64,000 nucleotides of DNA from Planotetraspora silvatica (GTDB lineage: Bacteria > Actinomycetota > Actinomycetes > Streptosporangiales > Streptosporangiaceae), in NCBI RefSeq assembly GCF_016863315.1, contig NZ_BOOQ01000026.1, forward strand, positions 124,001 through 188,000, written 5' to 3'. The translations under genes and the position numbers were made by a program. The number at the start of each line of letters is the position of its first letter. The first letter of the stretch is position 1. The notes beneath the pieces were generated by a model. That model saw only the letters and a program-made list of their open reading frames with translations. It did no database searches and was not told the DNA's origin. This document shows positions 19,487 through 63,962 of the stretch, piece after piece.

Positions 19487-19969
19487 GTGATCATGCACAC
19501 ATTCGGATTCATGCGGGTCCACCTGGGAAAACCTCGCCCGTGATCATGCACAGGTTCGCGTGCGGCGCCTCCGACTTGCTGATTCCCCATTTGTGATCAT
19601 GCGCAGATTCGCGGGGGCGTGGGCCTGCCTGGGAAGCCGTCGAGCGTGATCATGCGGAGCGAGCCTCCCGTGATCACGCTCGCGGCTTTGTCCACCCAGG
19701 TGCCGTACGGGTCCCCGCAGGTTGTGGGCGCGATCCGCCGGATGCGTGCATGATCACGGTCGAGGTTTCGGCTGGTCAACCTCATTGATCACGAATCTGT
19801 GCATGATCACGGGGAGGGTCGCAGCAGGTCGGGAGGGCCGCACGCGAACCTGTGCATGATCACGGGCGAGGGTTTCCCAGGTGGGGCCGCAGAAGCCCGA
19901 ACGCGTGCATGATCACACCAAAGGGTTCGGCTGGTGGGGTGCCATGATCACGAACCTGTGCATGATCAC
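19487..19969. repeat. mirror-symmetric 53-bp repeat array (four left, five right units)
   Basis: Left-arm cores GTGATCATGC start at 19487, 19540, 19593 and 19646, each exactly 53 bp apart. Right-arm cores, in the opposite orientation as GTGCATGATCAC, occupy 19746-19757, 19799-19810, 19852-19863, 19905-19916 and 19958-19969, again exactly 53 bp apart. The arms are symmetric about 19701.5. The first left unit and its mirror partner agree at 44 of 53 positions, and the second pair at 41 of 53. The array fills the gap between the convergent MFS and cofC genes, and its last core contains the cofC stop codon. No gene is present here. Confidence 0.95.
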
Positions 19970-20613
19970 GGGCGGAGGATGTGGGGGGTGATTTTGGTGG
20001 TGGCGGGGCCTAGGCCTAGGGCTTGGGCTTGTCTGAGGTCCTCGATCGTGTCGACGTCCCGCCGGACCGAGGGGATCCCCTCCAGCGTCAGCTCCTTCGC
20101 TCCGCCCGACAGATGCCTGGCCCTCGACTCGCCCCCGAACCTCGGCTGGAACGCGACCCCGGGCCGTACACCGTAGAAGGTGGTCCCCACCTCGGTGGCG
20201 TCCGGGACGAAGGACTCGTCGAAGTCGAGCGCCGCCGCCAGCACTCGTTCCAGCTCCTGCGGGCGTAACGCCGGCAAGTCCGCCTGGAGGGCTCCCACGG
20301 CGTCGCCGGGCGCGAGCCGCACCGCCTCCGCCGCGCCCACCCGCAACGCGGCGTTGAGCCCCGTGTCCGGGTCGTCCACCACATGCGCGCCGAGCGCGGC
20401 GAGCCGTTCCGCCGGCACCGGGTCCGCGGTCACCACCACGACGCGGGCCACGAGAGCGCAGGTCAGAGCCGCCGACACCGTGTCGCTCGCGACGGCCACG
20501 GCCAGGTCGGCCCGGTACGGCCCGGCCGCACCCGCCAGCCGCGTCTTGGCCCGGATGAGAGTCTTGACCGGCACCACGATGGACCATCGAGGGAGCTGCA
20601 TAACCTTAAGCAT
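19966..20613 (-). CDS. cofC: 2-phospho-L-lactate guanylyltransferase
   Basis: 215-residue nucleotidyltransferase for coenzyme F420 synthesis, activating phospholactate or phosphoenolpyruvate for CofD. The N-terminus WSIVVPVKTLIRAKTRLAG and the VVTADP, LQADLPAL and GTTFYGVRPG motifs fit CofC. I start at ATG 20613 (MLKVMQLP), preceded by GAGGCGGG; ATG 20601 is an alternative. Its TGA stop is supplied by the last repeat core of the adjoining array. It is divergent from plsC. Confidence 0.92.
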   Translation of the reverse strand: MLKVMQLPRWSIVVPVKTLIRAKTRLAGAAGPYRADLAVAVASDTVSAALTCALVARVVVVTADPVPAERLAALGAHVVDDPDTGLNAALRVGAAEAVRLAPGDAVGALQADLPALRPQELERVLAAALDFDESFVPDATEVGTTFYGVRPGVAFQPRFGGESRARHLSGGAKELTLEGIPSVRRDVDTIEDLRQAQALGLGPATTKITPHILRP

Positions 20614-20749
20614 CCCGCCTCGACATTCCGGCGGCGCAGCCGGGAGACTTGAGCCGCGCGCGCGTGACCTGGAGGCCAGGTGGCGGGGCGCAGCGATGCG
20701 ACACATGGAACATTCAGCGGCCGTCGAACGCGGCCGTGAAGGAGGAGAA

Positions 20750-21538
20750 GTGAGCCAGCCCAGCGAGCCCACCGGCGAGGTGGAGCAGTCGCCGTCCGGC
20801 GAGGCTCGGACACCCGCTTCGAGGCGCAGTTCGCGCCCGCCCCGCTTCTGGGAGTTCCTCGCCGTCCTGATCGTGAAGCCGCTGTCGCTGCTGTTCGTCA
20901 GGCGGAGATGGCGTGGGGGCGAGAACATCCCGCGCAAGGGCGGCCTGATCATCGCGGCCAACCATCTGTCCTGGTCGGACCCGGTGCTGCTCTCGCACTA
21001 CCTCTACAACACCGGTCGCTGGCCGATCATCTTGGCCAAGTCGGGGATCTTCAAGGTCCCCTTCCTCGGTCACGCGGTCTCCCAGTTGCGGGCCATCCCG
21101 GTCCATCGGGGGAGCACCGAGGCGACGCAGTCGCTCAAGACCGCCGAGGAGCGGCTCAGAGCGGGCGGCTGCATCCTGTTCTACCCGGAGGGCACGATCA
21201 CCCGCGACCCTGAGATGTGGCCGATGGCGTCCAAGACGGGCGCGGCGCGGCTGGCCCTCGCGACGGGTGTGCCGGTGGTCCCGATCGCCCACTGGGGTGC
21301 CCAGGAGCTCCTGCCGTACGGCGAGAAGAAGCCGCGGCTGTTCCCCCGCAAGACGTTCCACGTGGTCGCCGGCCCGCCGGTCGACCTGTCGAAGTACGCC
21401 GGCCTGCCGCTGCGCGGATCGGTCCTGCGCGAGGCGACGGCCGACATCATGGCGGCGGTCACCGATCTGCTTGCCGGGATCCGGGATGAGAAGGCGCCCG
21501 AAGTCCCGTATGACCCGAAAAGCGCTGCACAGGACTGA
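20750..21538 (+). CDS. plsC: 1-acylglycerol-3-phosphate acyltransferase
   Basis: 262-residue PlsC-type acyltransferase making phosphatidic acid. The catalytic NHLSWSD (H-x4-D, about residue 73) and FYPEGTITRD (about 145) motifs are present. A hydrophobic stretch near residues 35-50 may associate with the membrane. GTG 20750 follows AAGGAGGAG. The neighbouring gpsA supplies glycerol 3-phosphate, the precursor of its substrate, so the pair forms a phospholipid module. Confidence 0.93.
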   Translation: MSQPSEPTGEVEQSPSGEARTPASRRSSRPPRFWEFLAVLIVKPLSLLFVRRRWRGGENIPRKGGLIIAANHLSWSDPVLLSHYLYNTGRWPIILAKSGIFKVPFLGHAVSQLRAIPVHRGSTEATQSLKTAEERLRAGGCILFYPEGTITRDPEMWPMASKTGAARLALATGVPVVPIAHWGAQELLPYGEKKPRLFPRKTFHVVAGPPVDLSKYAGLPLRGSVLREATADIMAAVTDLLAGIRDEKAPEVPYDPKSAAQD

Positions 21539-21604
21539 GCACGACGTACGGTAGGGAATGGCACGTGACCGCGAGCCTGGGCGATGAGGAGTGGTGAGCG
21601 ACCA

Positions 21605-22612
21605 GTGAGCAAGGCGGTCGTCTTCGGTACAGGCTCGTGGGGCACCACGTTCGCGATGATCCTCGCTGAGGCGGGCACCGACACGGCCCTGTGGGGGAGG
21701 CGGGCGGAGGTCGTCGAGGCGATCAACGATCGGCACGAGAACCCCGAATACCTTCCCGGCGTGAAGCTGCCCGAGACCCTGCGCGCCACGACCGATCCCG
21801 TCGCGGCCATGGACGGAGCGGACTTCGTCGTCCTCGCCGTCCCCGCACAGACGCTGCGCGGCAACCTCGACGAGTGGAAGGACGCCATTCCGCCCGGCGC
21901 CGTGCTGGTCAGTCTGATGAAGGGCGTCGAGCTGGGCACCGGCAAGCGGATGAGCGAGGTCATCTGCGAGGTGGCCGAGGTGCCGGAGAGCCGGGTCGCG
22001 GTGGTCTCCGGGCCCAACCTGGTCCCCGAGCTGGCCCGGCGGCAGCCGGCCGCGGCCGTCGTCGCCTGTACGGACGAGGCGGTGGCCGGCAGGCTCCAGG
22101 ACGCCTGCCACCTGCCGTGGTTCCGCACCTACACGAACACCGACGTCGTCGGCGTCGAGCTCGGCGGCGCGGTCAAGAACGTCATCGCGCTGGCCGTGGG
22201 CGTCGCGGCGGGTATGGGCCTCGGTGACAACATCCGGGCCACGCTGATAACCCGCGGACTCGCCGAGATCGCCCGGCTGGGCGGGGCGCTCGGCGCCGAC
22301 CAGCACACCTTCGCCGGTCTCGCGGGGATGGGCGACCTGATCGCGACCTGCACGTCGCCCCTGTCCAGGAACCGGACCTTCGGGGAGAACCTCGGGCGCG
22401 GCATGACGCTGGCCGAGGTCGTGGCCGCGACCAAGCAGACGGCCGAGGGCGTGAAGTCCTGCGAGTCGGTTCTCGAGCTGGCCAGGAAGCACGATGTGGA
22501 GATGCCCATCACCGAGGTCGTCGTGGGAGTGGTCCACGACGGTCTGACACCCAGTGAGGCCGCGCTCCTGCTGATGTCCCGGAGTCCCAAACCGGAGCGA
22601 TACGGCCTGTGA
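21605..22612 (+). CDS. gpsA: glycerol-3-phosphate dehydrogenase (NAD(P)+)
   Basis: 335-residue enzyme reducing dihydroxyacetone phosphate for phospholipid synthesis. The N-terminal [11 protein letters not shown] is the dinucleotide fold, and [11 protein letters not shown] with [16 protein letters not shown] marks the C-terminal catalytic domain with the conserved lysine in [11 protein letters not shown] 21605 places the fold at the N-terminus; ATG 21584 adds seven residues and cannot be excluded. It overlaps the next start as GTGA. Confidence 0.95.
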
Positions 22613-23847
22613 ACCCCATGAGGCGGTCGCGGAAGAGGCCCGGGGAGAACACCCGGGCCGTCCATCTGCCCTCGCCTCCGCTGCCCCGTCAGGTCCCGAT
22701 CGGCCTGCCCGTCTGGCGGACCGCCTCGTGGAGTTTCGAGTCGTCCGGCGAGTACGCCGACGTCCTGGCGGGCCGCGTGCCGGGTTTCGCCTACAGCCGG
22801 ATCGACAACCCGACCGTGGCGGCCTTCGCCGCCGGGGTGGCGGCCCTCGAGGGCGCCGCCGCACCCGATGACGTGTCGGGCCAGGCCTTCCCGTCGGGAA
22901 TGGCCGCGATCAACACGGTCTTCCTGAGTTTCCTCCGCGCGGGGGCGCATGTCGTCGCGCCCGCCCCCGTGCACGGGGGGACGTACGCGCTGCTGACCGA
23001 CGTGTTGTCCCGGTTCGGGGTGGCCGTGGACTTCGTCGACTACACCGACCTGCGGCGGGTCCACGCCGCGATGCGGTCGACGACGAAGATCGTGTACGCG
23101 GAGGCGCTGGCCCACCCGACGATGATGGTGGCCGACATCCGCGGTCTCTACCGGATCGCCGGCGAGGCGGGGGCCCTGCTCGTCGTCGACTCCTCGACCG
23201 CCACCCCGATCGTGTGCCGCCCGCTCGAGCACGGCGCCGACCTGGTCGTCCACTCGGCCACCAAATACCTGGGCGGGCACGACGACAGCACCGGCGGCGT
23301 GGTGGTCGGGCGGCACGACCTGATGGCCCAGATCCGTGAGGTCCGCGTCGCCACGGGCGGTTCGCTCTCGCCGGACGACGCGTTCCTCCTGCACCGGGGC
23401 CTGGAGACGCTGACTCTGCGCGTGCGGCGGATGTGCGCGACGGCGATGGAGGTCGCGGCCGCCGTGGCCAAGCACCCGGCCGTGCGCCGGGTCGACTATC
23501 CGGGTCTGCCGGGCCACCCCGCGCACCAGCTCGCCCGGCTCGTCTTCGACTCCGGTCCCGAGGGCACCCGGTTCGGCGCGTGCATGACCGTAATCCCTCA
23601 CGGCGGGTACGCGGCGGGCATGACCCTGGCGGACGGCCTGCGCCTCGCCGGGATCGCCTCCTCCGTCGGCGGCACCCACACCAAGGTCACGCACCTCGCC
23701 TCGGTCGCCCGTTCCGACGAGGCGCTTTCCGGGGTCGACGCGGGAGCCGTGCGGTTCTCGATCGGCCTCGAGGACGCCGACGACCTCATCATGGACGTCA
23801 CCCAGGCGCTCGACACGCTGCGTTCCGCCAGTCCGGCGCGCGGCTGA
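22609..23847 (+). CDS. Cys/Met metabolism PLP enzyme (trans-sulfuration family)
   Basis: 412-residue PLP-dependent enzyme of the cystathionine gamma-lyase/synthase fold. The Schiff-base lysine is in [14 protein letters not shown] (about residue 218). [15 protein letters not shown] and [14 protein letters not shown] match the family. GTG 22609 overlaps the gpsA stop by four bases, so the two are coupled. Whether it is a beta-lyase, gamma-lyase or methionine gamma-lyase cannot be decided from sequence alone. Confidence 0.9.
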
Positions 23848-23887
23848 CAAGCCGTTTTGCACCCCAGACACGGTAGATTCGGGCATC

Positions 23888-25003
23888 ATGAACGAGGTTC
23901 GCGAGTCACGGTCGCGTATACGTGTGGCGGTCGTCTTCGGAGGACGCAACTCCGAGCACGCCGTCTCCCTGATGGGCGCCGGAAGCGTGCTTGAGGCGAT
24001 CGACCGCTCAAAGTACGAGGTGTTCCCCATCGGCATCGCTCAGGACGGGCGCTGGGTGCTGGCCTCCGGCAGCCAGAGTTATGCGATCGAGGCGGGCCGC
24101 CTGCCCTCCGTCGAGGAGTCCGGTACGGCTCTCGCGCTGCCGTCCGAGTCGGGTTCGCTCGTCGCCCTCGAGCCGGGGCAGATCCCGCGGTCTCTCGGTG
24201 AGGTCGACGTCGTCTTCCCCGTCATGCACGGCCCCTTCGGCGAGGACGGGACCATCCAGGGACTGCTGGAGATGGCCGGGGTGCGTTACGTGGGGTCCGG
24301 CGTGCTGGCCAGCGCCGTCGGCATGGACAAGGCCTACATGAAGCTCGTTCTCCGGGCGGCCGGCCTGCCCGTGGGGCCGTTCGTCGTCGTCCGTGACCGT
24401 GACTGGCGGACGGACCGCGCGCGGGTACTCAAGGAGGTCGAGGAGCTCGGCTGGCCCGTTTTCGTGAAGCCGGCCCGCGCCGGGTCGTCGCAGGGCATCT
24501 CCAAGGCCCACGACGTGGAGTCCCTCGAGGCGGCGGTCGAGTTCGCCCGGGCCCATGATCCCAAGGTGCTGGTCGAGGCCGCCATCGTCGGCCGTGAGAT
24601 CGAGTGCGCAGTGCTGGAGTCCTTCGGCGACGCGCCCGCGGAGGCGAGCATGCCCGGCGAGGTCCTGGTCAGGGGCGAGCACGAGTTCTTCGACTTCGAG
24701 GCCAAGTACTACCCCGACCAGATGGCGCTCGACGTGCCCGCCGACCTCCCCGAGGAGACGATCGAGGCGCTGCGGGCCATGGCCGTACAGGCCTTCGAGT
24801 CGCTCGGATGCGAGGGGCTGTCCCGGGTCGACTTCTTCTACACGCCGTCGGGTGAGCTCGTCCTGAACGAGATCAACACCATGCCCGGCTTCACGTCCCT
24901 CTCGGTCGCCCCGCAGTTGTGGGCCGCGAGCGGCCTGCCGTACGCCGATCTCGTCGACCGGCTGATCCAGCTCGCCTACAACAGGCCGGCGGGGCTGCGC
25001 TGA
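23888..25003 (+). CDS. ddl: D-alanine--D-alanine ligase
   Basis: 371-residue ATP-grasp ligase joining two D-alanines for peptidoglycan. VVFGGRNSEHAVSLMGA is the N-terminal signature, and HGPFGEDGTIQGLLE and NEINTMPGFTSLSVAPQL are the central and C-terminal Ddl motifs. It converges on DUF3515 with only 13 bases between. Confidence 0.97.
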   Translation: MNEVRESRSRIRVAVVFGGRNSEHAVSLMGAGSVLEAIDRSKYEVFPIGIAQDGRWVLASGSQSYAIEAGRLPSVEESGTALALPSESGSLVALEPGQIPRSLGEVDVVFPVMHGPFGEDGTIQGLLEMAGVRYVGSGVLASAVGMDKAYMKLVLRAAGLPVGPFVVVRDRDWRTDRARVLKEVEELGWPVFVKPARAGSSQGISKAHDVESLEAAVEFARAHDPKVLVEAAIVGREIECAVLESFGDAPAEASMPGEVLVRGEHEFFDFEAKYYPDQMALDVPADLPEETIEALRAMAVQAFESLGCEGLSRVDFFYTPSGELVLNEINTMPGFTSLSVAPQLWAASGLPYADLVDRLIQLAYNRPAGLR

Positions 25004-25016
25004 CTCGCTCGCCGAC

Positions 25017-25463
25017 TCACTCGGGGATGGCGGCCTTGATGGGCCCGGCGAGATCGACCTGGACCTCCGCGGGCTTGTGCTGGGGAGAGATCGTCACCTC
25101 GACGTACGCCTCGCGGTTGACGGCGGTGTACAGCGCCGGCCGCTGCGGATCGTTGAACCAGCCGATGCCGTTGACGTCCGACACGTCGGCGGTGGCGTCC
25201 ATCGCGGCGGGCCGGTCGACGCCGCAGCGCAAGGCGATCTCGCCCTCGCCCCAGACCACGACGTACGGCGAGGCGGGCTCGGACGCGACGCGGTCGAGCC
25301 CGTCGAGCGTGCGGGGAAGCGCGCCGGCGAGCTTCTGGCACGCGGCCGCGGCTGGGCCCGTGGGTGTGGGCGGGTCGACGCGCACGACGCCGGAGCATCC
25401 GGCCAGGACGGTCAGAGCCGCCAGTGCGGCCGCCGCCCCGGCGGGCAGGGCTGGTCTTGGCAT
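25017..25463 (-). CDS. DUF3515 family lipoprotein
   Basis: 148 residues with a signal peptide ending in LAGC (cysteine about residue 22), followed by a proline-rich linker. Conserved features include LPRTLDGLDRV and YVVVWGEGEIALRCGV. This uncharacterised actinobacterial family regularly sits between ddl and thiL, as here. It is probably anchored on the outer face of the membrane. Confidence 0.9.
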   Translation of the reverse strand: MPRPALPAGAAAALAALTVLAGCSGVVRVDPPTPTGPAAAACQKLAGALPRTLDGLDRVASEPASPYVVVWGEGEIALRCGVDRPAAMDATADVSDVNGIGWFNDPQRPALYTAVNREAYVEVTISPQHKPAEVQVDLAGPIKAAIPE

Positions 25464-25512
25464 GGTCTTCCAGATCGGCTGTCCGGCGGGTGTCGAGGCC
25501 CGCCGGACCGGG

Positions 25513-25746
25513 CTAAATGTGGACTATCGGACACGTAAGCGTACGTGTGATGCCCGCCACCGCCTGAATCTGGGCCACGACGAGCTTGCCGAGTTCGTCC
25601 ACGTCCCGGGCCTCGGCCCGGACGATCACGTCATAGGGGCCGGTGACATCCTCGGCCTGCGTGACGCCCACGATCGACGCGATCTGCCCGGCCACATCGG
25701 CGGCCTTGCCGACCTCGGTCTGGATAAGGATGTAGGCCTGCACCAT
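25513..25746 (-). CDS. stand-alone Lrp/AsnC ligand-binding (RAM) domain protein
   Basis: 77 residues, the complete RAM/AsnC effector fold without a DNA-binding domain. It begins MVQAYILIQTEVGKAADVA and contains VTGPYDVIVRAEA. Start ATG 25746 is preferred over the ATG one codon upstream. Such small proteins bind amino acids and oligomerise with full-length Lrp proteins. It is divergent from thiL with 47 bases between the starts. Confidence 0.88.
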   Translation of the reverse strand: MVQAYILIQTEVGKAADVAGQIASIVGVTQAEDVTGPYDVIVRAEARDVDELGKLVVAQIQAVAGITRTLTCPIVHI

Positions 25747-25793
25747 CACGTCCTCCGGATAGAGATCAGTGCCGGAGCGTAACCGTACCTCGA

Positions 25794-26810: not shown

Positions 26811-26881
26811 GGGGAATTTTGTGACAAGGATTAATTAGCTCTGTTATTAAGTAAGGCGGTTACCAACAGGAAAGGACCCTC

Positions 26882-27835: not shown

Positions 27836-27872
27836 CGCGGGCGATTCCCATTGGTCCTGGTTGGATGGGGGC

Positions 27873-28667: not shown

Positions 28668-28674
28668 CCCGGGC

Positions 28675-51888: not shown

Positions 51889-52111
51889 GTGATCATGCAC
51901 GGATTCGTGGGCAAGGTGTCTGAGCGGCGCGAACGCCCTGCGTGATCATGCACAGGCTCGTGGATTCGGCCCTGACCTGCGCAGACTCCGAGCGTGATCA
52001 TGCACGGATTCGTGGAACCAGGCTCTGGCCTGGGCGAACTCTGTCCGTGATCATGCACACATTCGCCGGAAGGATGTCTGAGCAGCGCAAACGCCCCTCG
52101 TGATCATGCGC
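51889..52111 (+). repeat. left arm of the 53-bp repeat array beside typA (five units)
   Basis: Cores GTGATCATGC start at 51889, 51942, 51994, 52047 and 52100, spaced 53, 52, 53 and 53 bp. Spacers of units 1 and 4 share TGTCTGAGC and CGCAAACGCCC-like blocks, so they are related. The fifth core forms part of the typA terminator stem. This fills most of the 456-base gap between sodC and typA. Confidence 0.95.
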
Positions 52112-52134
52112 GGTGGCATGTTCACGAGGGGCGT
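52091..52134 (-). terminator. typA terminator built around a repeat core
   Basis: ACGCCCCTCGTGA (52091-52103) pairs perfectly with TCACGAGGGGCGT (52122-52134). Inside it CATGC pairs with GCATG. The left half of the stem contains the start of the last repeat core at 52100. It lies 82 bases after the typA stop. Confidence 0.8.
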
Positions 52135-52215: not shown

Positions 52216-54069
52216 TCAGTTGACGCGCTTGGCCCGCGCGGTTGCGCGGCCGCGGCTGGCCGCGTCGAGCACGACCTTGCGGATGCGGACGGTCTCCGGC
52301 GTGATCTCCACGCACTCGTCGTCACGGATGAACTCCAGCGCCTGCTCCAGCGACAGGGATCGCGGTGGGATCACCTTCTCCGTCTCGTCGCTGGTGGAGG
52401 AGCGCATGTTCGTGAGCTTCTTCTCCTTGGTGATGTTCACGTCCATGTCGTCGGAGCGCGAGTTCTCGCCGACGATCATGCCCTCGTAGACCTCGGTGGT
52501 GGGAGCGACGAACAGCGTCCCGCGCTCCTGCAGGTTCAGCATCGCGAAGGGGGTGACGGGGCCCGACCGGTCGGCGACGAGCGAGCCGTTGTTGCGGGTC
52601 CGCAGCTCGCCGAACCACGGCTCGTAGGCGTCGAACACGTGGTGGACCAGGCCGGTTCCCCGGGTCTCGGTGAGGAACTCCGTACGGAAGCCGATCAGGC
52701 CACGTGCGGGAACCACGAACTCCATGCGGATCCAGCCGGTGCCATGGTTCGTCATGTGCTCCATGCGGCCCTTGCGTACGGCCAGCAGCTGGGTCACGGC
52801 CCCCAGGTACTCCTCGGGGCAGTCGACGGTGAGCCGCTCGACCGGCTCGTGCACCTTGCCGTCGACGAGCTTGGTCACGACCTGCGGCTTGCCGACGGTC
52901 AGCTCGTAACCCTCGCGGCGCATCTGCTCGACGAGGATGGCCAGCGCGAGCTCACCACGGCCCTGGACCTCCCAGGTGTCGGGGCGCTCGGTGGGGATCA
53001 CGCGCAGCGAGACGTTTCCGACCAGTTCCTTGTCGAGCCGGTCCTTGACCATCCGCGCGGTGACCTTGGAGCCCTTGATCTTGCCGACCAGCGGGCTGGT
53101 GTTGGTGCCGATCGTCATCGAGATCGCCGGCTCGTCGACCGTGATCAGCGGCAGGGGCCGCGGGTCGTCCGGGTCGGCCAGCGTCTCGCCGATCATGATG
53201 TCGGGGATGCCGGCGATGGCGATGATGTCGCCCGGGCCCGCCTCCTCGGCGGGCTTGCGCTCCAGCGCGTCGGTCATGAGCAGCTCGGAGATCTTCACCC
53301 GCTGGATCGTGCCGTCGGTACGGCACCAGGCGACCTGCTGCCCCTTCTTGATCGTGCCGTGGTGGACCCGGCAGAGCGCGATCCGGCCCAGGTAGCTGGA
53401 GGCGTCGAGGTTGGTGACGTGCGCCTGCAGCGGGGCGGTCGGGTCGTAGAGGGGAGCCGGGATCGTCTTGGTGATCGTCTCGAACAGCGGCTCGAGGTTG
53501 TCGGCGTCCGGCATGCCGCCGTCCTGCGGCCGGTTGAGCGAGGCCCGCCCGGCCTTGGCCGAGGCGTAGACGATGGGGAAGTCGATCTGCTCCTCGGTGG
53601 CGTCGAGGTCGAGGAACAGCTCGTAGACCTCGTCGACGACCTCGGCGATCCGGGCGTCGGGCCGGTCCACCTTGTTGATGCACAAGATCACCGGCAGCTT
53701 GGCGGCGAAGGCCTTGCGCAGCACGAAGCGCGTCTGGGGCAGCGGCCCCTCGGAGGCGTCCACCAGGAGGACGACGCCGTCGACCATGGAGAGGCCACGC
53801 TCGACCTCTCCGCCGAAGTCGGCGTGGCCGGGGGTGTCGATGATGTTCAGGGTCATTCCGCCGTGCTTGACCGCGGTGTTCTTCGCGAGAATGGTGATGC
53901 CCTTCTCGCGCTCGAGGTCATTGGAGTCCATGACGCGCTCGTCGACGTCCTGGTTGGCGCGGAACGCCCCGGACTGCCACAACATGGCGTCCACCAGCGT
54001 GGTCTTGCCATGGTCGACGTGCGCGATGATCGCGATGTTCCGCAGGTCGTCGCGGCTGTTCAAAGGCAT
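52216..54069 (-). CDS. typA: translational GTPase TypA/BipA
   Basis: 617-residue ribosome-binding GTPase for stress adaptation and 50S assembly. G1 [15 protein letters not shown]3 [15 protein letters not shown] and G4 INKVDRPDA are present, followed by EF-G-like domains and the TypA C-terminal domain (GIGFR-type region [17 protein letters not shown]). A TAAAAT box for its promoter may lie at 54158-54163. It stands alone and is bracketed by two inward-facing repeat arms. Confidence 0.97.
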
Positions 54070-54311: not shown

Positions 54312-54482
54312 TTGCATGATCACGGCCGATGAAGCCGCGGGTCGTGGGGGGTTTTCGCGAATCTGTGCATGATCACGAATCTGGTTTGGGCAGGTGGCGA
54401 GGGGCTTCTGCGAACCTGTGCATGATCACGCGGGGTGTTTTGGCTGGTCAGGTGTCCCGTCTCCGAACTTGTGCATGATCAC
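54312..54482 (-). repeat. right arm of the 53-bp repeat array beside typA (four units)
   Basis: Reverse-orientation cores lie at 54312-54323 (one base different at its outer end), 54365-54376, 54418-54429 and 54471-54482, exactly 53 bp apart. The arm is upstream of both typA and the hydrolase gene. The remainder of the 473-base gap holds the typA promoter region; no gene is seen. Confidence 0.95.
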
Positions 54483-55410: not shown

Positions 55411-55446
55411 TCCCGGTCCTGTACGGCCTGCCGTACAGGACCGGGA
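55411..55446. terminator. perfect 16-bp bidirectional terminator
   Basis: TCCCGGTCCTGTACGG (55411-55426) pairs perfectly with CCGTACAGGACCGGGA (55431-55446) across the loop CCTG. It ends transcription of both the hydrolase and the aldehyde dehydrogenase genes. Confidence 0.8.
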
Positions 55447-55457
55447 GGTGCTCATCC

Positions 55458-56894: not shown

Positions 56895-57089
56895 GTCCCT
56901 GCCTCCTGGTCGGGCGCGCCTCACGAATTTGAGCGAACGCTTGCTTGGACAAGTCTGTTCTCGCGCGCCGGACGTCACAAGTCCCCGCGCGCTCAGTGAG
57001 ACCGAATCATGTTCTGTCGGTCGTTGGCAATACCCCGGCGCCGGGGGCTTCGGAGCGGGTGTCGCATGCGGCGAGTCCGGCTCGCCGGC

Positions 57090-57171
57090 CTGAGCCGGGC
57101 CTGAGCAGAGCCTGAGCTGAGCTGAGCATGAGCCGGGCCTGAGCTGAGCCTGAGCCGAGCATGAGCCGGGG
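57090..57171. repeat. tandem 11-bp repeat (TGAGC-based), about seven units
   Basis: Units of the form CTGAGCNGRGC start at 57090, 57101, 57112, 57128 (beginning ATGAGC), 57139, 57150 and 57161 (beginning ATGAGC), with a 5-base TGAGC insertion after the third unit. It sits in a 336-base gap between the starts/ends of two minus-strand genes and holds no gene that I can support. Confidence 0.85.
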
Positions 57172-57182
57172 CACCCGGAGAG

Positions 57183-57222
57183 CCGTACGGCTCCCGCCCC
57201 AGAAGGAGCGGGAGCCGTACGG
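57183..57222 (-). terminator. terminator of the M14 carboxypeptidase gene
   Basis: CCGTACGGCTCCCGC (57183-57197) pairs perfectly with GCGGGAGCCGTACGG (57208-57222) across 10 bases. It lies nine bases after the stop codon of the minus-strand gene. Confidence 0.8.
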
Positions 57223-57230
57223 GTGCGGGA

Positions 57231-60200
57231 CTACGGGAGGGTGGGGTGGAGCAGGTGGGTCATCGAGCGCTTGACCAGGTCGGTCCGCATCGCCTGGGTG
57301 GTCGCTCCTTCGGCGCCGAAGCCGAAGTAGACCGTGTCCTTGGTGGTGATGCCGGCCCCGTCCTCGAGTGACTGGTCGCTGCGCGTCCAGTCGTTGGGAG
57401 CCTCGGACGAGTCGGCGGGCGGCCCCGCGACCGTCCAGCCACCGAGGTCGCCCTCGAAGGAGGTCTCGGAGACGGTCGCACCGTCGGCCGTGACCTTGGT
57501 GTCGTCGACCCAGACGCCGAGGCCCTGCGTGCCCCAGTCGCTGATGTAGGAGATCGACACCTCGACCTGCTTGCCCGCGTACGCGGTCAGGTCGATCGAC
57601 CACTGCTGCCAGCCGTTCGACGAACCGGAGGCCGCGTGCCACGAGCCGGTGGTGCCGGTGCCGGTGCACGAGGTCGCGCCGTCGAAGGTCTGGTAGTGCG
57701 CGGTGGACGGATGGATGTCCACCCAACCGGAGGCGCAACTGTCACCGGGCTCACCCGAGGTGTGCCCGTTGGCGTCGGGCAGGGTCGTCCAGTCGTCCTG
57801 GCCCACGGTGTGCGCCTCGACGGTCAGGAAGTCCCAGTTCGGCTCGGTGTTGTACGACGTCCAGAACGACAGGTTCCCGCTGGTCTTCCCGGTCAGGTCG
57901 ACCGTACGGGTCAGGCGCTTCCAGGACACGTCGGCCTGGCCGCTCTGCGCGTCCCATGCGCCGGTGTGCGGGCTGAAGGGCGCTCCCGAGCTGTACTGCC
58001 ACTTCAGCGGCGCCGAACTGGCGAACTGCGGGAACTTCTTCTGGGACAACACCGAGGAGGTCGTCACGAAGGTCGAGGTGTGGTCCTGGTTGTTCGCCGA
58101 GTCCCCGCCGTTCAGCGTGCCGAGGAAGCCGTTGAACGCGCCTGCCGTGCCCTTGAGCGGGAGGGTGTTCCCGTCGCCGTCCTGGCCTCCGCCGTCCACG
58201 AAGGTGTAGGCGCCCAGGTAGTACTGCACGAAGTCGTTGCTCAGCGCGAGGCACGGCGGTTTGGTCCCCGTGGTGCACTCGGGCTGGCCCGGGTAGTCGG
58301 GCTCGTACCAGTACGCGTTGTTGACGTTCTGCGCGTACAGGGCGTACTTGCCGGTGGTGAGGAGCTTGCCGCCCTCGTTGAGGTAGTCGCGGAAGGCTAG
58401 TTCGAGCGCCTCGGCGAGGTTCGCGGCGGTGCCGCCCGGCTGGGTGGCCGCGCGCGGGATGATGTCGTCGCCCGTCTCCCAGACGACGGCCTTGTAGTGG
58501 CTGAGCGCGCCCAGCGGGTGGGGCGCGGTGCGGCCGTTCTTGTCGACGTCGTAGACGTCGGAGCTGTAGCCGGCCTTCGACAGCGCCGTGGCGTAGTCGT
58601 CGGCGTACTTCGCCTCGGTCACACCCTGAACCGGGCTGGCGCCGGTGACGTCCTCCGCCGCGACGATGAGCACCTTGCCGCCGATGTCAGCCGACACCTT
58701 GTAGGTGAACGACTCGCTCTTGCCGGTGAGCGAGGTGAACCACACCTTCACGCTGTCGCCGGGCTTGGCGCCCTTGACCGTGCCGCGGAGCTGGTGGAAG
58801 TAGGTGTCGTAGCCGTCGCCGTAGCGCTCGCCGCCCTTCCACTCGGAGGTGGCGGCGACCCGCGCGATCCCTCCGTTGATCTGGTACCGGAGCAGGACGG
58901 GGCCGAGCCTGCGCTGGGCGTCCACCTGGACGACCTGGTCCTTGCCGTAGCTCACGCCGAACTTGTCGACCACGAAGTCGGGGACGGTGTTGCCGAGGTG
59001 GCTGACCGGCTTGGCCAGGTTTGGAGCCGACTTGAGGATGTCGAGCGCGAAAGGCAGCTGCTTCTCGAACTCGGCCTGGACCAGCGCCTCGTCGTCGGGG
59101 AAGACGAACCCGCAGCCCTCGCACCCCTCATCGAGCTCGGGAGTCCAGGCGAGCGTGCCGTACTTCGCGTGCGCGTGGTCGGTGGTCTCGCCGTTGGTCG
59201 TGTACAGCTCGGCGGCCACGCCGGGGTCGAATCCGGGGACGGCCGGGTTCTCGTCGGTTCCGGTCAGCGCCAGGTAGACGGGGTCGTCGGCGGTCTTGGT
59301 GGCGACCTGCCAGCCCTGGGGGTAGAGCAGCAGCGGGCCGAAGGAGTGGTAGTTGACCTGGGCCTTGGGGCGCAGGCGCTTGAGCAGCCCGTCCATGGCC
59401 CTCGTCTCCGGCTCCGAGGCCGGGGCCGTACCGCGGTAGGTCTCGCTGCTGTAGACGCCGGACGACCCCTCGTCGTCGTAGCCCCACTTGGTCGGGAAGT
59501 TCCGGTTGGGGTCGACCCCGTCGTTGCCGGTGATCTCACTGTCGCCGTCGTTGTCGCGCAGGTTCTTGCGCCACAGGCGGTTGCCCTCGGTGAAGGTGAA
59601 GTCGTAGCCGTCCGGGTTGGCCACCGGCACGAACCACACCTCGGTCGTGGACAGCAGCTTGCTGACGTCCGGCTTGGACTTGTTGGCCACCAGGTACTTC
59701 AGCAGGCGCATGTCGACCTCGGTGGAGATCCACTCGCGCGCGTGCTGGGTCGCCGAGTAGAGCACCGCCGGCTTGGCCCCGTCGGGCAGGACCCTGGCGA
59801 GCTTGGTCAGCTTGACGGCGAGGATGTCCTTGCCCTGGATGGTCTTGCCGATCGACTGCAGCTTCGCGATGTCCTTGTTGCCGTCGGAGATGGCGCGGAG
59901 CTGGTCGGCGATGCCGCCCTTCTCGGAGTAGGACCGCCACACGGTGTACCCGCCGGCGGCCTGCGCCCGGGCCGCCTGCAACTGGGTCTGACCCTGGGGG
60001 TTGCGGACCGGCTGCGGCCTGTAGCCGAGGGTCTGCAACTTCTTCAGCTCGATCGGGGTGGCGGTGAGCTCGATGTGCTCCTTGTCGCCCGCGGCCTTCT
60101 GCTGAACGACGTCGAAGCCCTTCTGGGTCAGCGTGCCGGCGGTCCCGGCCGGGCTGTCCAGTTCGTAGAGCTCGATCCGGTCCGTGGGTGGAAGGGGGTC

Positions 60201-60290
60201 GGCGGTGACGGCCTGCGCACCGGCGGTCGGCATGAGTGGCGCGAGCAGTGCGCCGGCCGCAAGGACTGACAAGATCAGTCTTCGGGACAT
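57231..60290 (-). CDS. large secreted M14 zinc carboxypeptidase
   Basis: 1019 residues. Signal peptide at 1-27 (LILSVLAAGALLAPLMPTA). The M14 domain (about 110-450) has the zinc motif in YSATQHAREWIST (HxxE), the substrate arginine and zinc region in VDPNRNFPTKWG, and the catalytic glutamate in WTPELDEGCEGCGF. The second half resembles the C-terminal region of immune-inhibitor-A-type proteins, including beta-sandwich segments (QVEVSISYISDWGTQGLGVW). It probably degrades extracellular peptides for nutrition. Confidence 0.93.
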   Translation of the reverse strand: MSRRLILSVLAAGALLAPLMPTAGAQAVTADPLPPTDRIELYELDSPAGTAGTLTQKGFDVVQQKAAGDKEHIELTATPIELKKLQTLGYRPQPVRNPQGQTQLQAARAQAAGGYTVWRSYSEKGGIADQLRAISDGNKDIAKLQSIGKTIQGKDILAVKLTKLARVLPDGAKPAVLYSATQHAREWISTEVDMRLLKYLVANKSKPDVSKLLSTTEVWFVPVANPDGYDFTFTEGNRLWRKNLRDNDGDSEITGNDGVDPNRNFPTKWGYDDEGSSGVYSSETYRGTAPASEPETRAMDGLLKRLRPKAQVNYHSFGPLLLYPQGWQVATKTADDPVYLALTGTDENPAVPGFDPGVAAELYTTNGETTDHAHAKYGTLAWTPELDEGCEGCGFVFPDDEALVQAEFEKQLPFALDILKSAPNLAKPVSHLGNTVPDFVVDKFGVSYGKDQVVQVDAQRRLGPVLLRYQINGGIARVAATSEWKGGERYGDGYDTYFHQLRGTVKGAKPGDSVKVWFTSLTGKSESFTYKVSADIGGKVLIVAAEDVTGASPVQGVTEAKYADDYATALSKAGYSSDVYDVDKNGRTAPHPLGALSHYKAVVWETGDDIIPRAATQPGGTAANLAEALELAFRDYLNEGGKLLTTGKYALYAQNVNNAYWYEPDYPGQPECTTGTKPPCLALSNDFVQYYLGAYTFVDGGGQDGDGNTLPLKGTAGAFNGFLGTLNGGDSANNQDHTSTFVTTSSVLSQKKFPQFASSAPLKWQYSSGAPFSPHTGAWDAQSGQADVSWKRLTRTVDLTGKTSGNLSFWTSYNTEPNWDFLTVEAHTVGQDDWTTLPDANGHTSGEPGDSCASGWVDIHPSTAHYQTFDGATSCTGTGTTGSWHAASGSSNGWQQWSIDLTAYAGKQVEVSISYISDWGTQGLGVWVDDTKVTADGATVSETSFEGDLGGWTVAGPPADSSEAPNDWTRSDQSLEDGAGITTKDTVYFGFGAEGATTQAMRTDLVKRSMTHLLHPTLP

Positions 60291-60527
60291 GGATACGGCC
60301 CTTCGTAGGGAACGATCACCCGAATCTCGCCTGCGGTCAGATCACCCGCAAGTCACGTCAGGACTCGTGTAAGTCACGAATTGGTCACGGCTACCCCAAG
60401 GGAAAATCCTCACAAATGGTTAAAAAGTATGAGATTCCTCCTTAATAGGGCATGAGTTTCTCCCGTTCTGGTAGCAGGCGTAAAGATCGCCTTCTATAGT
60501 TTCGGTCCGAATGGGATTGGAGGCCGC

Positions 60528-61415
60528 GTGCGACCGAGGCGCCTGATTGGGCTGGCGGTGGTGACCACCGCGTTACTCGGGACGTTCGCGGCACCCTACG
60601 CGCAGGCCGCGCCGGACGAGCAGGCCTCGCTGGCCAAGCTGACCAAGCAGGCCGCCGAGCTCACCAAGGCCTATCGCGGTGAGATCGTCAGCCTCGAGGA
60701 CGCGCAGACCGCCGTCAAGAAGGCGTCGTCGCGGGCGAAGAACCTCAAGAGCGATCTTCGTGCGGCCGAGGAGCGGGTGGGCGACTTCGCCCAGACGTCG
60801 TACATGGGCGGCGGGCTCAACGACTCGCAGTTGTTCAGCATGCGGATCGACCCCGGCACCGTCTCCACGATGTCGTATCTCTCCAACCAGACGACCGAGC
60901 AGCTCAACACCGTCAAACGGCTCATCGCGGAGCACAAGAAGGCCACCGAGGACGCCGACACGGAGATCGCCAAGCTGCGGAAGAACATCAAGGAGCTCCA
61001 GGCCCAGCGGCGTGACGTCGAACGGCGCATGGCCAAGTTCGGCATTCAGACCCCCGGCTCGGCGTCGGGTCTGACCAGCCGCCTGGTGAACGTGCGGGCC
61101 GCGATCATGTCGCAGTTCCCCATGCCGTTCGGCGTGGGATGCCTGCGCGTCGGCGACCCGGGCGAGCACGGCAAGGGCCGGGCCTGCGACTTCATGATGA
61201 GCTCGGGCGGCCGCCTGCCGGACGCCGTGGCCAAGGAGCGCGGCGACGCCCTGGCCCAGTGGTGCATCAGCCACGCCGGCCAGTACGGGATCATGTACAT
61301 CATCTGGCAGCAGCGCATCTACGACATGCGCACCGGGGGCGGCTGGAAGATGATGGAGGACCGCGGCGGCACCACGGCCAACCACTACGACCACGTGCAC
61401 GTCTCGGTGCTCTGA
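60528..61415 (+). CDS. secreted coiled-coil protein with peptidase-like C-terminal domain
   Basis: 295 residues. Signal peptide (LIGLAVVTTALLGTFAAPYAQA), then two coiled-coil helices (about residues 35-90 and 120-165), like NlpC/P60-type actinobacterial proteins. The C-terminal domain (about 185-295) has CLRVGDPGEHGKGRACDFMM and NHYDHVHVSV, a D-Ala-D-Ala carboxypeptidase-like metal-site pattern. GTG 60528 follows GGAGG. A TATAGT -10 box is at 60495-60500. Role probably in cell-wall turnover. Confidence 0.85.
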   Translation: MRPRRLIGLAVVTTALLGTFAAPYAQAAPDEQASLAKLTKQAAELTKAYRGEIVSLEDAQTAVKKASSRAKNLKSDLRAAEERVGDFAQTSYMGGGLNDSQLFSMRIDPGTVSTMSYLSNQTTEQLNTVKRLIAEHKKATEDADTEIAKLRKNIKELQAQRRDVERRMAKFGIQTPGSASGLTSRLVNVRAAIMSQFPMPFGVGCLRVGDPGEHGKGRACDFMMSSGGRLPDAVAKERGDALAQWCISHAGQYGIMYIIWQQRIYDMRTGGGWKMMEDRGGTTANHYDHVHVSVL

Positions 61416-61422
61416 GGGTTCG

Positions 61423-62709
61423 TCAGCCCTGATTCGCGAGGAACTCCCTGAGCCAGTGATAGGACGCCTTCGGCGTGCGCTCCTGGGTGTCGAAGTCGAC
61501 GTGGACCAGGCCGAACCGCTGGTGGTACCCCTCGGCCCACTCGAAGTTGTCGAGCAGCGACCACACGAAATAACCCCGGACGTCCACACCCTCGGCCTGG
61601 GCCTGCCGCACGGCCGCGATGTGGCCGTCGAGGAAGGTGATCCGCTCCTGGTCGTCGACGCCCTCGTAGGAGCAGCCGTTCTCGGTGATGTAGACGGGCG
61701 GCAGCGCCGTGCCGTACCGCGCCTTGAAGGTGACGAGCAGCTCGCGCAGGCCGTCGGGGACCACGGGCCAGCCGAAGGCCGTCGTCGGGTAGCCGGTGAT
61801 GCCCGCGTCGGTGAACGGCAGGCCGTCAGAGCCCGGTCCTGCGATCCGGGTGGGGTTGTAGTAATTGATCCCCAGGCCGTCGAGGGGTTGGGCGATGGTC
61901 TCCAGGTCTCCGGTACGGACGAAGTCCAGGTCGGCGATGCCGTACGCCGAAAAGTCGGGATATGTGCCGAAAAAGAGGGGGTCGTTGAACAGCCGGTTGT
62001 GCAGGGTGTCGTAGGCCTCGGCGGCGGCCAGGTCCTCGGCGGAGCCGGAGGCGGGCCACACCGGTGTGCAGTTGTTGGTGATCAGCACGCGTTCGGCGCC
62101 GCCGCCACGCAGCGCCTGTACGGCCAGGCCGTGCCCGAGCAGTTGATGATGGGCCGCGGGGAGGGCGTCGAGGAAGAGGGCCTTGCCGGGGGCGTGGATG
62201 CCCAGGGCGTAACCGAAGACCATATGGATGAAGGGCTCGTTGAGTGTGATCCACGTTGTGACGCGGTCGGAGAGGCGGTCGGCCACGATGGCGGCGTAGT
62301 CCGCGAAGTATGCGGATATATCGCGATTGAGCCAGCCGCCCTCGTCCTCAAGGGCCTGGGGCAGGTCCCAGTGGAAGAGCGTGGGCGTGGGGACGATGCC
62401 CTTCTCGCACAACGCGTCCACCAGTCGGTCGTAGAAGTCCAGGCCCGCCTGGTTGACCGCGCCGCGTCCGGACGGTTGGACGCGTGGCCAGGAGATCGAG
62501 AAGCGATAGGCGTTCAGGCCGACTTCCTTGATCAGCGCCACGTCCTCGGGCCACCGGTGGTAGTGGTCGCAGGCGACGTCGCCGGTGTGGCCATCGCGGG
62601 TCCGGCCGGGTTCGTGGGAGAAGGTGTCCCAGATCGACGGGCCCTTGCCGTCCTCGTGGGCGGCCCCCTCGATCTGATAGGACGCGGTAGCCGTACCCCA
62701 GAGGAACAT
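61423..62709 (-). CDS. GH1 beta-glucosidase
   Basis: 428-residue glycoside hydrolase family 1. It starts FLWGTATASYQIEGAAHEDG; the acid/base glutamate is in ITLNEPFIHM and the nucleophile glutamate in VYITENGCSYEG. No signal peptide, so it cleaves imported disaccharides in the cytoplasm. The TetR gene divergent from it and the operator between them suggest local control. It converges on the coiled-coil gene with 7 bases between. Confidence 0.94.
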   Translation of the reverse strand: MFLWGTATASYQIEGAAHEDGKGPSIWDTFSHEPGRTRDGHTGDVACDHYHRWPEDVALIKEVGLNAYRFSISWPRVQPSGRGAVNQAGLDFYDRLVDALCEKGIVPTPTLFHWDLPQALEDEGGWLNRDISAYFADYAAIVADRLSDRVTTWITLNEPFIHMVFGYALGIHAPGKALFLDALPAAHHQLLGHGLAVQALRGGGAERVLITNNCTPVWPASGSAEDLAAAEAYDTLHNRLFNDPLFFGTYPDFSAYGIADLDFVRTGDLETIAQPLDGLGINYYNPTRIAGPGSDGLPFTDAGITGYPTTAFGWPVVPDGLRELLVTFKARYGTALPPVYITENGCSYEGVDDQERITFLDGHIAAVRQAQAEGVDVRGYFVWSLLDNFEWAEGYHQRFGLVHVDFDTQERTPKASYHWLREFLANQG

Positions 62710-62730
62710 GGCCGCCTCCTGTGCGCCGTT

Positions 62731-62749
62731 ACATGAGTCAAGCTCATGT
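62731..62749. promoter_or_regulatory. inverted-repeat operator between bgl and tetR
   Basis: ACATGAG (62731-62737) and CTCATGT (62743-62749) form a perfect 7-bp inverted repeat with a TCAAG spacer, flanked by near-symmetric TT and TAA. It lies 22 bases upstream of the GH1 start and 38 bases upstream of the tetR start. Confidence 0.7.
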
Positions 62750-62786
62750 TAATCTGCCAGTCGCCGGATCGGGAGACAATAGCGGA

Positions 62787-63437
62787 ATGACGGACGCCAC
62801 GGGTGGAACACTGCGTCGCCGGCCGGCCCAGCGCCGAAGTCAGGAGCGAGTCGAGCGGATGCTCGACGAGTGCGCCCGGCTGCTCGACGAGGCGGGGTAC
62901 GACGCGCTGACCACGAAGGAGGTCGCGCGCCGGGCGGAGGTGCCGATCGGGACCTTCTACCAGTTCTTCCCCGACAAGCAGGGACTGGTCAGGGCGCTCG
63001 CACTGCGCAACCTCGACGCCTTCCTCGACAGCGTGGCCACGAGGCTGGCCGTCTCGTCGCCCTCGGGCTGGACCGACGTGGTCGATCTGGGCATCGACGA
63101 GTTCGTGCGGATGAAGCGGACGGTGCCGGGGTTCGGTGTCGTCGACTTCGGCGAGGTGCAGGCGACGCCTGGTGGTCCCGGTCTGCCCGGTACGCAGCGG
63201 ATGCTGGACGCGGCGCTGGAGAACAACGTCGTGGTGGCCGACCGGCTGCGCTCGCTGACCACCGATGTGCTCGGACTGCCGAGGAGTGGCGACACGGCGC
63301 GGGCGTTCCTGGTGGCCGTCGAGGCGGCGGACGCGGTCCTGAAGCTCGCGTTCCGGGCCCACCCCGACGGTGACCCGGACCTGATCGCCGAATGCAAGCG
63401 CCTGGTCCGCCGCTACCTGGCCGACCACCTCGCCTAA
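62787..63437 (+). CDS. TetR-family regulator
   Basis: 216 residues. HTH at about residues 20-65 (LTTKEVARRAEVPIGTFYQF) and a TetR C-terminal domain. ATG 62787 (MTDATGG) is preferred over an upstream start that lies in the operator. Divergent from the GH1 gene. Its stop is followed after three bases by the 53-bp repeat array. Confidence 0.9.
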   Translation: MTDATGGTLRRRPAQRRSQERVERMLDECARLLDEAGYDALTTKEVARRAEVPIGTFYQFFPDKQGLVRALALRNLDAFLDSVATRLAVSSPSGWTDVVDLGIDEFVRMKRTVPGFGVVDFGEVQATPGGPGLPGTQRMLDAALENNVVVADRLRSLTTDVLGLPRSGDTARAFLVAVEAADAVLKLAFRAHPDGDPDLIAECKRLVRRYLADHLA

Positions 63438-63440
63438 CGC

Positions 63441-63962
63441 GTGATCATGCACAAGTTCGTGATCAAGCCGTCCGACCTGCGCCTTCACCGGGCGTGATCA
63501 TGCACAGGTTCGGCGAAAGGCCCGCCGACCTGCACCTTCCCCAGCGTGATCATGCACGGATTCGAGGAACGCCCCGCTGGCCTGGGCGTTCATCCGGCGT
63601 GATCATGCACAAGTTCGCTGAGGAATGGGCGGACCAGGCCAAACGTCTTTCGTGATCATGCATTGATCTGGGCGACTTGCGCGTCGAAGAGTGTGCCCGA
63701 CCTGGGGGTCGTTCGATGGTCGTGCGGCGACCCGGTCAATGCATGATCACGCAGTCCGAAAATGCAGGTAGGCGGGGGTGTCTGCGAATCCGCGCATGAT
63801 CACGATTCGAGAATGCCCAGGTCGGTGTGCCCTTCCTAGAATCCGTGCATGATCACGCCGGGAGACGGTGCAGGTTGGCGGGGCTTTTCCCGAATCTGTG
63901 CATGATCACGCTGGAGGGATGGCCAGGTCGGCGGGCCTTTCGCCGAATCCGCGCATGATCAC
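63441..63962. repeat. mirror-symmetric 53-bp repeat array (five left, five right units)
   Basis: Left cores GTGATCATGC start at 63441, 63494, 63546, 63599 and 63652 (steps 53, 52, 53, 53). Right cores end at 63750, 63803, 63856, 63909 and 63962, exactly 53 apart. The arms are symmetric about 63701. Unit 3 (63546) and its mirror (63845) share GGATTC, AGGAA and CTGGGC blocks; unit 2 and its mirrors share CCCGCC and ACCTGCACC. It begins three bases after the tetR stop and fills the rest of the window, with no gene visible. Confidence 0.95.

Follow-up and report, generated by a model that had tools for sequence, protein, structure and literature searches.

The stretch analysed here comprises 64,000 nucleotides of the Planotetraspora silvatica genome (contig NZ_BOOQ01000026.1, positions 124,001–188,000) and is referred to below as the window. 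It carries a repeat family built on the 10-mer GTGATCATGC, further called the core. Cores following one another on the same strand form an arm, and one arm or two make up an array. The earlier note, made from the letters of the window, reported 28 mismatch-free copies in four clusters, and all were recovered at 19487–19969, 51889–52109, 54314–54482 and 63441–63962; 100 dinucleotide shuffles of the window contained 0.12 copies on average and one at most. Twenty of the 28 cores extend exactly to GTGATCATGCAC, as had been counted before. The 53-bp periodicity of the arms was reproduced as well: Tandem Repeats Finder recovered 53-bp periods for the arrays, and the only two 52-bp steps within arms lead from 51942 to 51994 and from 63494 to 63546. 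Genes were called by a codon-usage script; nine reading frames of the window were scanned, and the seven retained all have Pfam matches, whereas two overlapping frames have none. The arrays and the genes adjoining them are as follows.

19487–19655, plus strand: plus arm of cluster 1; 4 cores at 53-bp steps, the first of them 22 bp past the end of an MFS transporter gene
19656–19747, no strand: centre of cluster 1, between the facing arms
19748–19969, minus strand: minus arm of cluster 1; 5 cores, the outermost of which (19960–19969) holds the stop codon of the CofC-like gene
19966–20613, minus strand: CofC-like nucleotidyltransferase gene (Pfam), its 3' end abutting cluster 1
51889–52109, plus strand: plus arm of cluster 2; 5 cores at steps of 53, 52, 53 and 53 bp, between sodC and the 3' end of typA and antisense to both
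52216–54069, minus strand: typA/bipA gene (Pfam; tblastn), lying within the facing arms
54314–54482, minus strand: minus arm of cluster 2; 4 cores, in the gap from which typA and an alpha/beta hydrolase gene diverge
62721–63437, plus strand: TetR-family regulator gene (Pfam), its 3' end abutting cluster 3
63441–63661, plus strand: plus arm of cluster 3; 5 cores at steps of 53, 52, 53 and 53 bp, the first 4 bp past the end of the TetR-family gene
63662–63740, no strand: centre of cluster 3, where the innermost facing cores are prolonged as the inverted repeat GTGATCATGCATTGA/TCAATGCATGATCAC
63741–63962, minus strand: minus arm of cluster 3; 5 cores at 53-bp steps

The statement that all copies lie between genes holds for most of them; the exceptions are the core at 19960, with its stop codon, and the core at 51889, which is inside the longest sodC reading frame and outside the shorter predicted gene. 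The enclosure of typA by facing arms is found also in P. mira (L061) and P. kaengkrachanensis (L102). In the plus arm of cluster 2 the last core is part of a stem-loop of score 16 (52091–52134), and in another array the GTG...CAC of a core closes a stem of score 19. A profile scan of the window gave one weak match with an imperfect core. In 400 kb the same kind of scan gave 66 matches, 61 with exact and 5 with imperfect cores, while 14 of the 75 exact cores present there scored below the threshold.

The consensus of the repeat was drawn from 317 unique 53-bp units. It reads C-GTGATCATGC-A-C/G-A-N-R-TTCG at positions 0–19, followed by a second box, YGACCWGS, at positions 33–40 and by a G-poor AC.C stretch at positions 45–48, ahead of the next core. 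The unit is a direct repeat and not a palindrome, TGATCA being the only self-complementary part of the core. The consensus boxes begin at 0, 32 and 53 bp, which corresponds to about 0, 3 and 5 helical turns. Among 497 deduplicated same-strand steps shorter than 400 bp, 407 equal 53 bp; 41 equal 52, 8 equal 54, 2 equal 51 and 9 equal 106 bp.

The RRWTTCG previously noticed after most cores proved to be bound to a rule. At positions 16–18 the 22 non-last cores of the window have TTC in 21 cases and CTC in one, with a complete TTCG in 20, and none of the six last cores of the arms has TTCG. The rule is general over 203 unique arms, where YTC occupies these positions after all first cores, 98% of the middle ones and 22% of the last ones. 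The YGACCWGS score shows the same arrangement: it is −11.0 before first cores (background −12.5), 7.9 before middle cores, 8.1 before last cores and −9.4 after last cores. The arms are thus built like a row of fence posts, that is, a core with TTCG, then YGACCWGS, then the next core, with the last core bare. This arrangement suggests a functional unit of 63 bp, a bay that begins and ends with a core. Near one end of two arrays of the window's genome (G000:C2:235272–235440 and 288428–288671), and in their counterparts in two related genomes (G104 and G125), extra cores stand at odd offsets, either dividing a 53-bp bay into 35 and 18 bp or being spaced by 21, 23, 30 or 31 bp.

The search of the whole genome (8.66 Mb in 117 contigs) proposed in the earlier note yielded 498 forward and 500 reverse copies of the 10-mer, against none on either strand for the reversed control; the copies are phased and do not form an unphased background. 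Their position relative to genes was determined for 107 arrays with genes on both sides, a further 23 arrays lying at the edge of a locus; these counts include orthologous arrays from related species and are therefore partly non-independent. Of these arrays, 52 occupy convergent, 47 codirectional and 8 divergent gaps. For the 26 arrays of G000 alone the respective numbers are 13, 11 and 2, with 88, 277 and 116 gaps of at least 30 bp available. Of 173 cores a single one falls within a called gene, close to the 3' end of that gene; cores sharing just a few bases with a stop codon were treated as lying outside.

Arms within 400 bp of one another face each other in 66 cases and stand back to back in two (deduplicated). 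Single sense arms begin close behind the stop codon: in convergent gaps (n = 26) the median distance is 14 bp on the entry side versus 44.5 bp on the exit side (19 of 26, p = 0.03), and in codirectional gaps (n = 19) it is 19 bp versus 109 bp (16 of 19, p = 0.004), both p-values being optimistic because some of the arrays are orthologous to each other. In 13 of 45 single sense arms a TGA stop lies inside the first core. Five single arms lie in divergent gaps. Sites that are oriented, phased and of the protein-binding type might also act as polar barriers to replication forks, as in the Tus-Ter system. This we consider extremely improbable: the two strands carry practically equal numbers of cores, both arm orientations occur together in 42 of the 107 arrays as clean double arrays, and the arrays are tied to gene ends.

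The spread of the arrays was studied in 297 sampled genomes of the family. The search of related Streptosporangiaceae suggested earlier was positive: two cores 52–54 bp apart were found in 10 genomes, and in none of the controls. All five sampled Planotetraspora have them, with 132 to 729 pairs each; G059, assigned to another genus in the taxonomy used, has 496, and four Microbispora genomes have 1 to 13. Single matches in Lacrimispora and Eubacterium, among the matches listed, were taken as chance. The looser pattern GTGATCN{46,48}GTGATC occurs 610 times in G059, 262 and 67 times in the genus g34, and 242, 87, 84 and 74 times in four Microbispora genomes, over a background that is mostly below 30, so that G199 (33), G255 (34) and G207 (50) count as borderline. 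GTGATCWTGCA was counted in 394 genomes of the class; most have about 10 copies or fewer, and the controls gave 0 or 1. It reaches 414 copies in G325, 328 in G384, 108 in G531, 90 in G443, 45 in G323, 35 in G366 and 27 in G351, whereas G340, of one genus with G384, has a single copy. Variants of the arrays thus recur patchily, in some Microbispora, in another genus of the family and in several distant families of Actinomycetes.

The letters after the core differ between lineages, the consensuses of these extensions resting on small samples of 9 to 35 sites: ATCCCGCCACCC in G325, C.TCcTGGG in G384 and CGTTCGCCC in G443. In the outer unit of Microbispora GTTTGTCGCA follows a GTGATCTTGTA core, and in g34 the extension is ACTCGCA. 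Even within Planotetraspora, sites of G022 (loci L180–L182) were seen with GCAGAASTTCGG after the core in place of GCACAGRTTCG, as if the putative recognising protein had altered its specificity. In two genomes of the family f31 the copies seen are mostly lone facing pairs that form stems. Short hairpins GTGATCTTGTACGTGGGAGCAAGATCAC at 9769–9850 of the locus L207 (G088, genus g46), with a same-strand partner 53 bp away, are possibly a further lineage variant.

A 10-mer present in about a thousand exact copies, and a core shared by lineages that extend it differently, are what one would expect of a DNA-uptake sequence, which marks self DNA for natural transformation and is kept by uptake bias. 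The available part of a paper on Neisseria (PMC2397512) describes uptake sequences as mostly intergenic, sometimes right after stop codons and often forming inverted-pair terminators; a similar likeness, that is, many copies of a short motif, often behind stops, with inverted pairs in terminators, extends to Pasteurellaceae in the accessible portions of that paper and of PMC5217627. The arrays, unlike these sequences, are virtually never inside genes and consist of phased multi-copy arms with accessory boxes. The samples from other lineages agree, with 0–2 cores inside genes per sample. A third or more of the copies of uptake sequences lie inside coding genes. Although the copies here are near-exact and number in the hundreds, their genic share is thus that of the single core among 173, and neither the phasing at 53 bp nor the two boxes, TTCG and YGACCWGS, would follow from uptake bias. 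We regard an uptake function as very improbable.

Conservation was assessed at 14 sites of G000 (contigs C1 and C2; one of the sites is a lone core), whose counterparts in G104 and G125 were paired by hand from collinear BLAST blocks. All 14 sites have a counterpart in place in G104 and 13 of 14 in G125; conversely, all 14 clusters of these stretches in G104 and all 13 in G125 have a counterpart in G000. The lone core, an exact copy outside any array (G000:C2:65116), occupies the same place in three species. Orthologous arrays are identical in arm make-up and differ by a few units at most. Their parts diverge at very different rates. Between G000 and G104 the cores differ by 1.9%, the YGACCWGS boxes by 7% and the spacers by 18%, and in the comparisons with G125 the corresponding values are 5.5% and 3.9%, 24–26% and 44–46%. 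Within the arms of the 13 sites other than the lone core, 150 of 172 steps equal 53 bp. The array centres vary in length (100/42/98, 67/65/115 and 135/145/152 bp), some pairs staying constant (47/47 and 25/25 bp).

As cores and 53-bp steps stay while spacers diverge, the comparison points to purifying selection on the core and on bay length. In the earlier note either selection or gene conversion was credited with preserving the core. The former stands. Homogenisation by gene conversion was rejected, since the spacers are heterogeneous, with a mean identity between arrays of 50%. Local copying of units does occur within a few arrays: an identity above the 99.9th percentile of that between arrays was reached by about 2% of 154 unit pairs from the same arm and 3% of 147 from opposite arms.

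These data bear also on whether the arrays are a selfish or once-mobile extragenic repeat of the REP, BIME or MITE kind (repetitive extragenic palindromes, bacterial interspersed mosaic elements and miniature inverted-repeat transposable elements) with no host function. In the parts of PMC2817692 and PMC3733652 that were available, REP/BIME elements are described as extragenic, present in more than 100 copies per genome, arranged in composite two-orientation arrays, and proposed to act in termination or supercoiling. The arrays are alike in being extragenic, numerous and present in both orientations; their inverted arms, patchy taxonomic spread and few copied units would suit a mobile origin. 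Their unit, however, is non-palindromic, and the arms are direct repeats with a fixed step. The array positions are fixed between the species compared, and the core is selected while spacers drift. The Y1 transposase of REP elements (RAYT, PF01797) was not found in 14 of the 19 array-bearing genomes, G000 included; it was found in the array-bearing G022, G084, G034, G119 and G193 and in four of six array-poor genomes. Nothing similar to the arrays was found in plasmid and phage DNA at E 0.001, and six matches in viral contigs, which have a GC content of 0.42–0.50 and other surroundings, were judged unrelated by eye. The failure to find the transposase in most array-bearing genomes and the lack of a plasmid or phage match argue against a mobile element, a reading that we hold to be improbable. 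The best explanation includes arrays that are fixed and vertically inherited. We regard it as secure that they are selected, sequence-specific sites, strictly phased and mostly located at gene ends.

The earlier note had left open whether the arrays are bound as DNA or act as structured RNA. Mutual information over the 317 units is strongest for pairs no more than two positions apart, and the top covarying pair, 12–14, stems from differences between species just behind the core. Strong covariation over longer distances was not detected in these units; pairs such as 42–51 or 22–37 are weak (corrected value 0.043 or less), so that a structured RNA is not supported. A spacer of fixed length and free sequence argues for rigid duplex DNA, being hard to read in a flexible RNA. 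The binding-array half of the proposal is borne out by the selection on the core, the constant bay length and the helical phasing.

The strand that would be transcribed has a marked composition nevertheless. At −20 to −11 of the first cores the sense strand has 0.53 C and 0.19 G (n = 206). The excess of C over G in the 22 nt ahead of the first core, a stretch that is partly coding DNA where the stop lies near the core, is 6.55 in 206 arms versus 0.57 at 313 array-free gene ends of G000 (p = 2e-38), and YC dinucleotides number 7.0 versus 4.1. Downstream of gene ends with a core the C over G skew is 0.143 in G000, versus −0.015 without a core (p = 8e-8); the difference is seen also in G104 (p = 4e-6), G059 (p = 0.01) and G384 (p = 0.005). 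A C-rich, G-poor transcript after the stop codon, as expected of Rho-dependent terminators, is thus predicted for Planotetraspora, not for all lineages.

Rho itself is present in nine of nine genomes. A second, shorter Rho-like protein of 409 aa, 64% identical over the aligned part to the ordinary Rho of the same genome, is encoded at G000:C81:777–2006 (L264). Each of the five Planotetraspora and 13 Microbispora genomes tested has a locus of this kind (E 1e-164 or better), and so does G059, while G034, G084, G325, G384 and G340 gave, among the matches listed, the ordinary Rho and weak matches only. The second protein was rejected as a discriminating trans-acting factor because it is present with or without arrays.

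An element acting at the RNA level in 3' untranslated regions, where an RNA-binding protein or Rho would read GUGAUCAUGCA together with the C-rich RNA and fix the 3' end or the stability of the mRNA, would account for the sense orientation at gene ends, the C-rich, G-poor sense strand and the stem-loop centres of some double arrays. The lack of strong long-range covariation speaks against it, as do the 13 antisense single arms in codirectional gaps, and a strict 53-bp step with a free spacer is difficult to explain in single-stranded RNA; we find this reading rather doubtful. The arrays might instead organise the nucleoid or its topology, either as anchors of a chromosome-structuring protein or as sites where a topoisomerase relaxes supercoils between converging genes. 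They would then lie at gene ends since promoters and coding DNA do not tolerate them. About 1000 sites genome-wide, helical phasing, conserved positions and enrichment in convergent gaps suit this explanation. The close sense anchoring to stop codons, the C-rich sense strand ahead of the first core and the rule that arms face each other (66 versus 2) are not predicted by it. It is unlikely, though together with the RNA-level element it is the main rival of the explanation preferred below.

Intrinsic terminators do not account for the arrays. Between 44001 and 64000 of the window 6 sites were predicted, versus 6.5 in shuffles, that is, without excess, and one of them (54415) lies within an array; the arrays lack the GC-rich stem followed by a T run. 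We also considered whether arrays replace hairpins. At a convergent Microbispora locus, two genomes with a full array lack a strong stem in the 83 nt that precede the right-hand gene (scores 4 and 3). G193 has the outer facing pair only, which forms a stem of score 19. Among genomes lacking an array at this locus a stem-loop of score 11–19 is present in six of the eight that could be evaluated, the other two scoring 5 and 6; two of the eight, G215 and G199, have arrays at other places or are borderline cases, and in one further genome the locus is at a contig end. This is the only one of three Microbispora loci that supports replacement.

We compared the arrays with other known systems. The TTF-I sites of eukaryotes, repeated behind rRNA genes, are terminator arrays for polymerase I. 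At such sites, as at those of yeast Reb1 and Rap1, bound proteins stop a polymerase, as is proposed for the arrays; these proteins are eukaryotic, whereas the arrays belong to a bacterial genome, along which they are numerous, and show helical phasing. Blocking by Rap1 is orientation-dependent according to the part of PMC10310618 that was available. Rho-dependent rut sites share with the arrays the C-rich, G-poor RNA right after the stop codon. The arrays differ in their invariant 10-mer and 53-bp DNA phasing; to our knowledge, rut sites have neither an invariant 10-mer nor a fixed phasing. TAACTGA repeats of Beggiatoaceae, by the description in the accessible part of PMC4679880, form many intergenic sets of short direct repeats, patchy between lineages, and in these respects are similar, but their sequence is different. 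A CRISPR array, with perfect repeats of about 30 bp and unrelated spacers, was dismissed, given the 10-mer with degenerate boxes and spacers sharing YGACCWGS and other consensus positions. On the whole, the structured-RNA, REP/RAYT, CRISPR and uptake-sequence readings are disfavoured.

The literature was searched both by the letters of the 10-mer and by words, and no description of such arrays was found among the matches listed, with most subscription journals outside the scope; the displayed parts of PMC5217627 and PMC12306157 contain none. The 10-mer occurs once in a paper on ArgR of Streptomyces coelicolor (PMC5839063). Rfam reported only three tRNAs in the window and matched no array at the gathering score. 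The earlier note knew of no described element with this layout, and these searches agree. ARAGORN called a tRNA-Thr at 18095–18188 on the minus strand, within the MFS transporter gene, which is probably false because Rfam does not report it. A degenerate short tandem repeat (periods 5, 11, 22 and 38) lies at 57084–57168, just downstream of the minus-strand gene 57231–60290.

The gene-end arrays suggest an undescribed protein that reads them, with a role that is probably in stopping or insulating transcription. The explanation to which we give a tentative preference, on sequence grounds, is that they are protein-bound polar transcription barriers at gene ends, aided by C-rich RNA. A putative sequence-specific DNA-binding protein would line an arm head to tail, with one protein unit to each 63-bp bay: the core with TTCG, YGACCWGS about three turns on, and the next core at about five turns. 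An arm directly behind the stop codon and pointing with the gene would be a polar block to RNA polymerase. Polymerase running past the gene end would make C-rich, G-poor RNA, meet the bound row and be released, probably with the aid of Rho. Facing arms would close a convergent gene pair, and those on the two sides of typA would keep out transcription arriving from either direction. The phased bays, the fence-post anatomy, the sense anchoring at stops, the facing rule and the C-rich upstream strand, all of which are observed, support such a barrier. From them we infer the protein, its head-to-tail binding, the arrest of polymerase, the polarity of that arrest and the part played by Rho. In anatomy and orientation the arrays bear the mark of protein-roadblock terminators, namely repeated sites that stand oriented behind genes. 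A DNA-bound barrier combined with Rho-loadable C-rich RNA would account for both the DNA and the RNA features.

A number of observations weigh against this barrier. Eight of the 107 arrays, including the arm upstream of typA, are in divergent gaps, and of the 32 single arms in codirectional gaps 13 run antisense, unanchored to a stop. The C-rich stretch is in part coding, as stated above. The C over G skew is not significant in Microbispora (p = 0.21) or in G443/G531 (p = 0.68), and for G022 and G325, each sampled at two ends, p is about 0.075, above 0.05. The spacing in G325 and G384 is loose, mainly 32–55 bp and not strictly 53, so that the strict step is a trait of the family members. The hairpin data belong here too. 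The array of G186 (Microbispora) has a strong palindrome at its own centre, outside the 83-nt stretch tested. At the second Microbispora locus, six relatives without the array have best stems of 4 to 9 and a differing neighbouring gene, which makes it uninformative or adverse; the third gave only partial matches (best identity 68–73%) and no cores in nine loci. In Planotetraspora, stems scoring at least 10 occur in 26% of 27 single-arm gaps versus 31% of 107 array-free convergent gaps. Since stem-loops are about equally frequent with and without single arms, a genome-wide replacement of hairpins by arrays is not supported.

The interpretation given in the earlier note is partly supported. Beyond it lie the location of arms mostly at gene 3' ends, the bare last core, the second box and the presence of the core in distant actinobacterial families. 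Taken further, the barrier may be a dedicated genome-scale system of termination and insulation, in which a putative protein would sit head-to-tail on phased arrays behind hundreds of genes, a polar barrier comparable to the terminator boxes that are repeated behind rRNA genes of eukaryotes, and several distant families of actinobacteria would have amplified the same core, each lineage with extensions of its own; this larger proposal is possible and no more than a cautious guess. We know of no dedicated genome-wide termination by a DNA-bound protein in bacteria. If the proposal is true, many genes in these bacteria would be ended or insulated by a DNA-bound protein and not by an RNA hairpin alone. 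The 63-bp sites are highly conserved and readily synthesised, with about 1000 cores per genome, so the putative protein could then be fished out directly. The patchy occurrence of the same core in distant families raises the question of how such a family of sites is amplified under selection.

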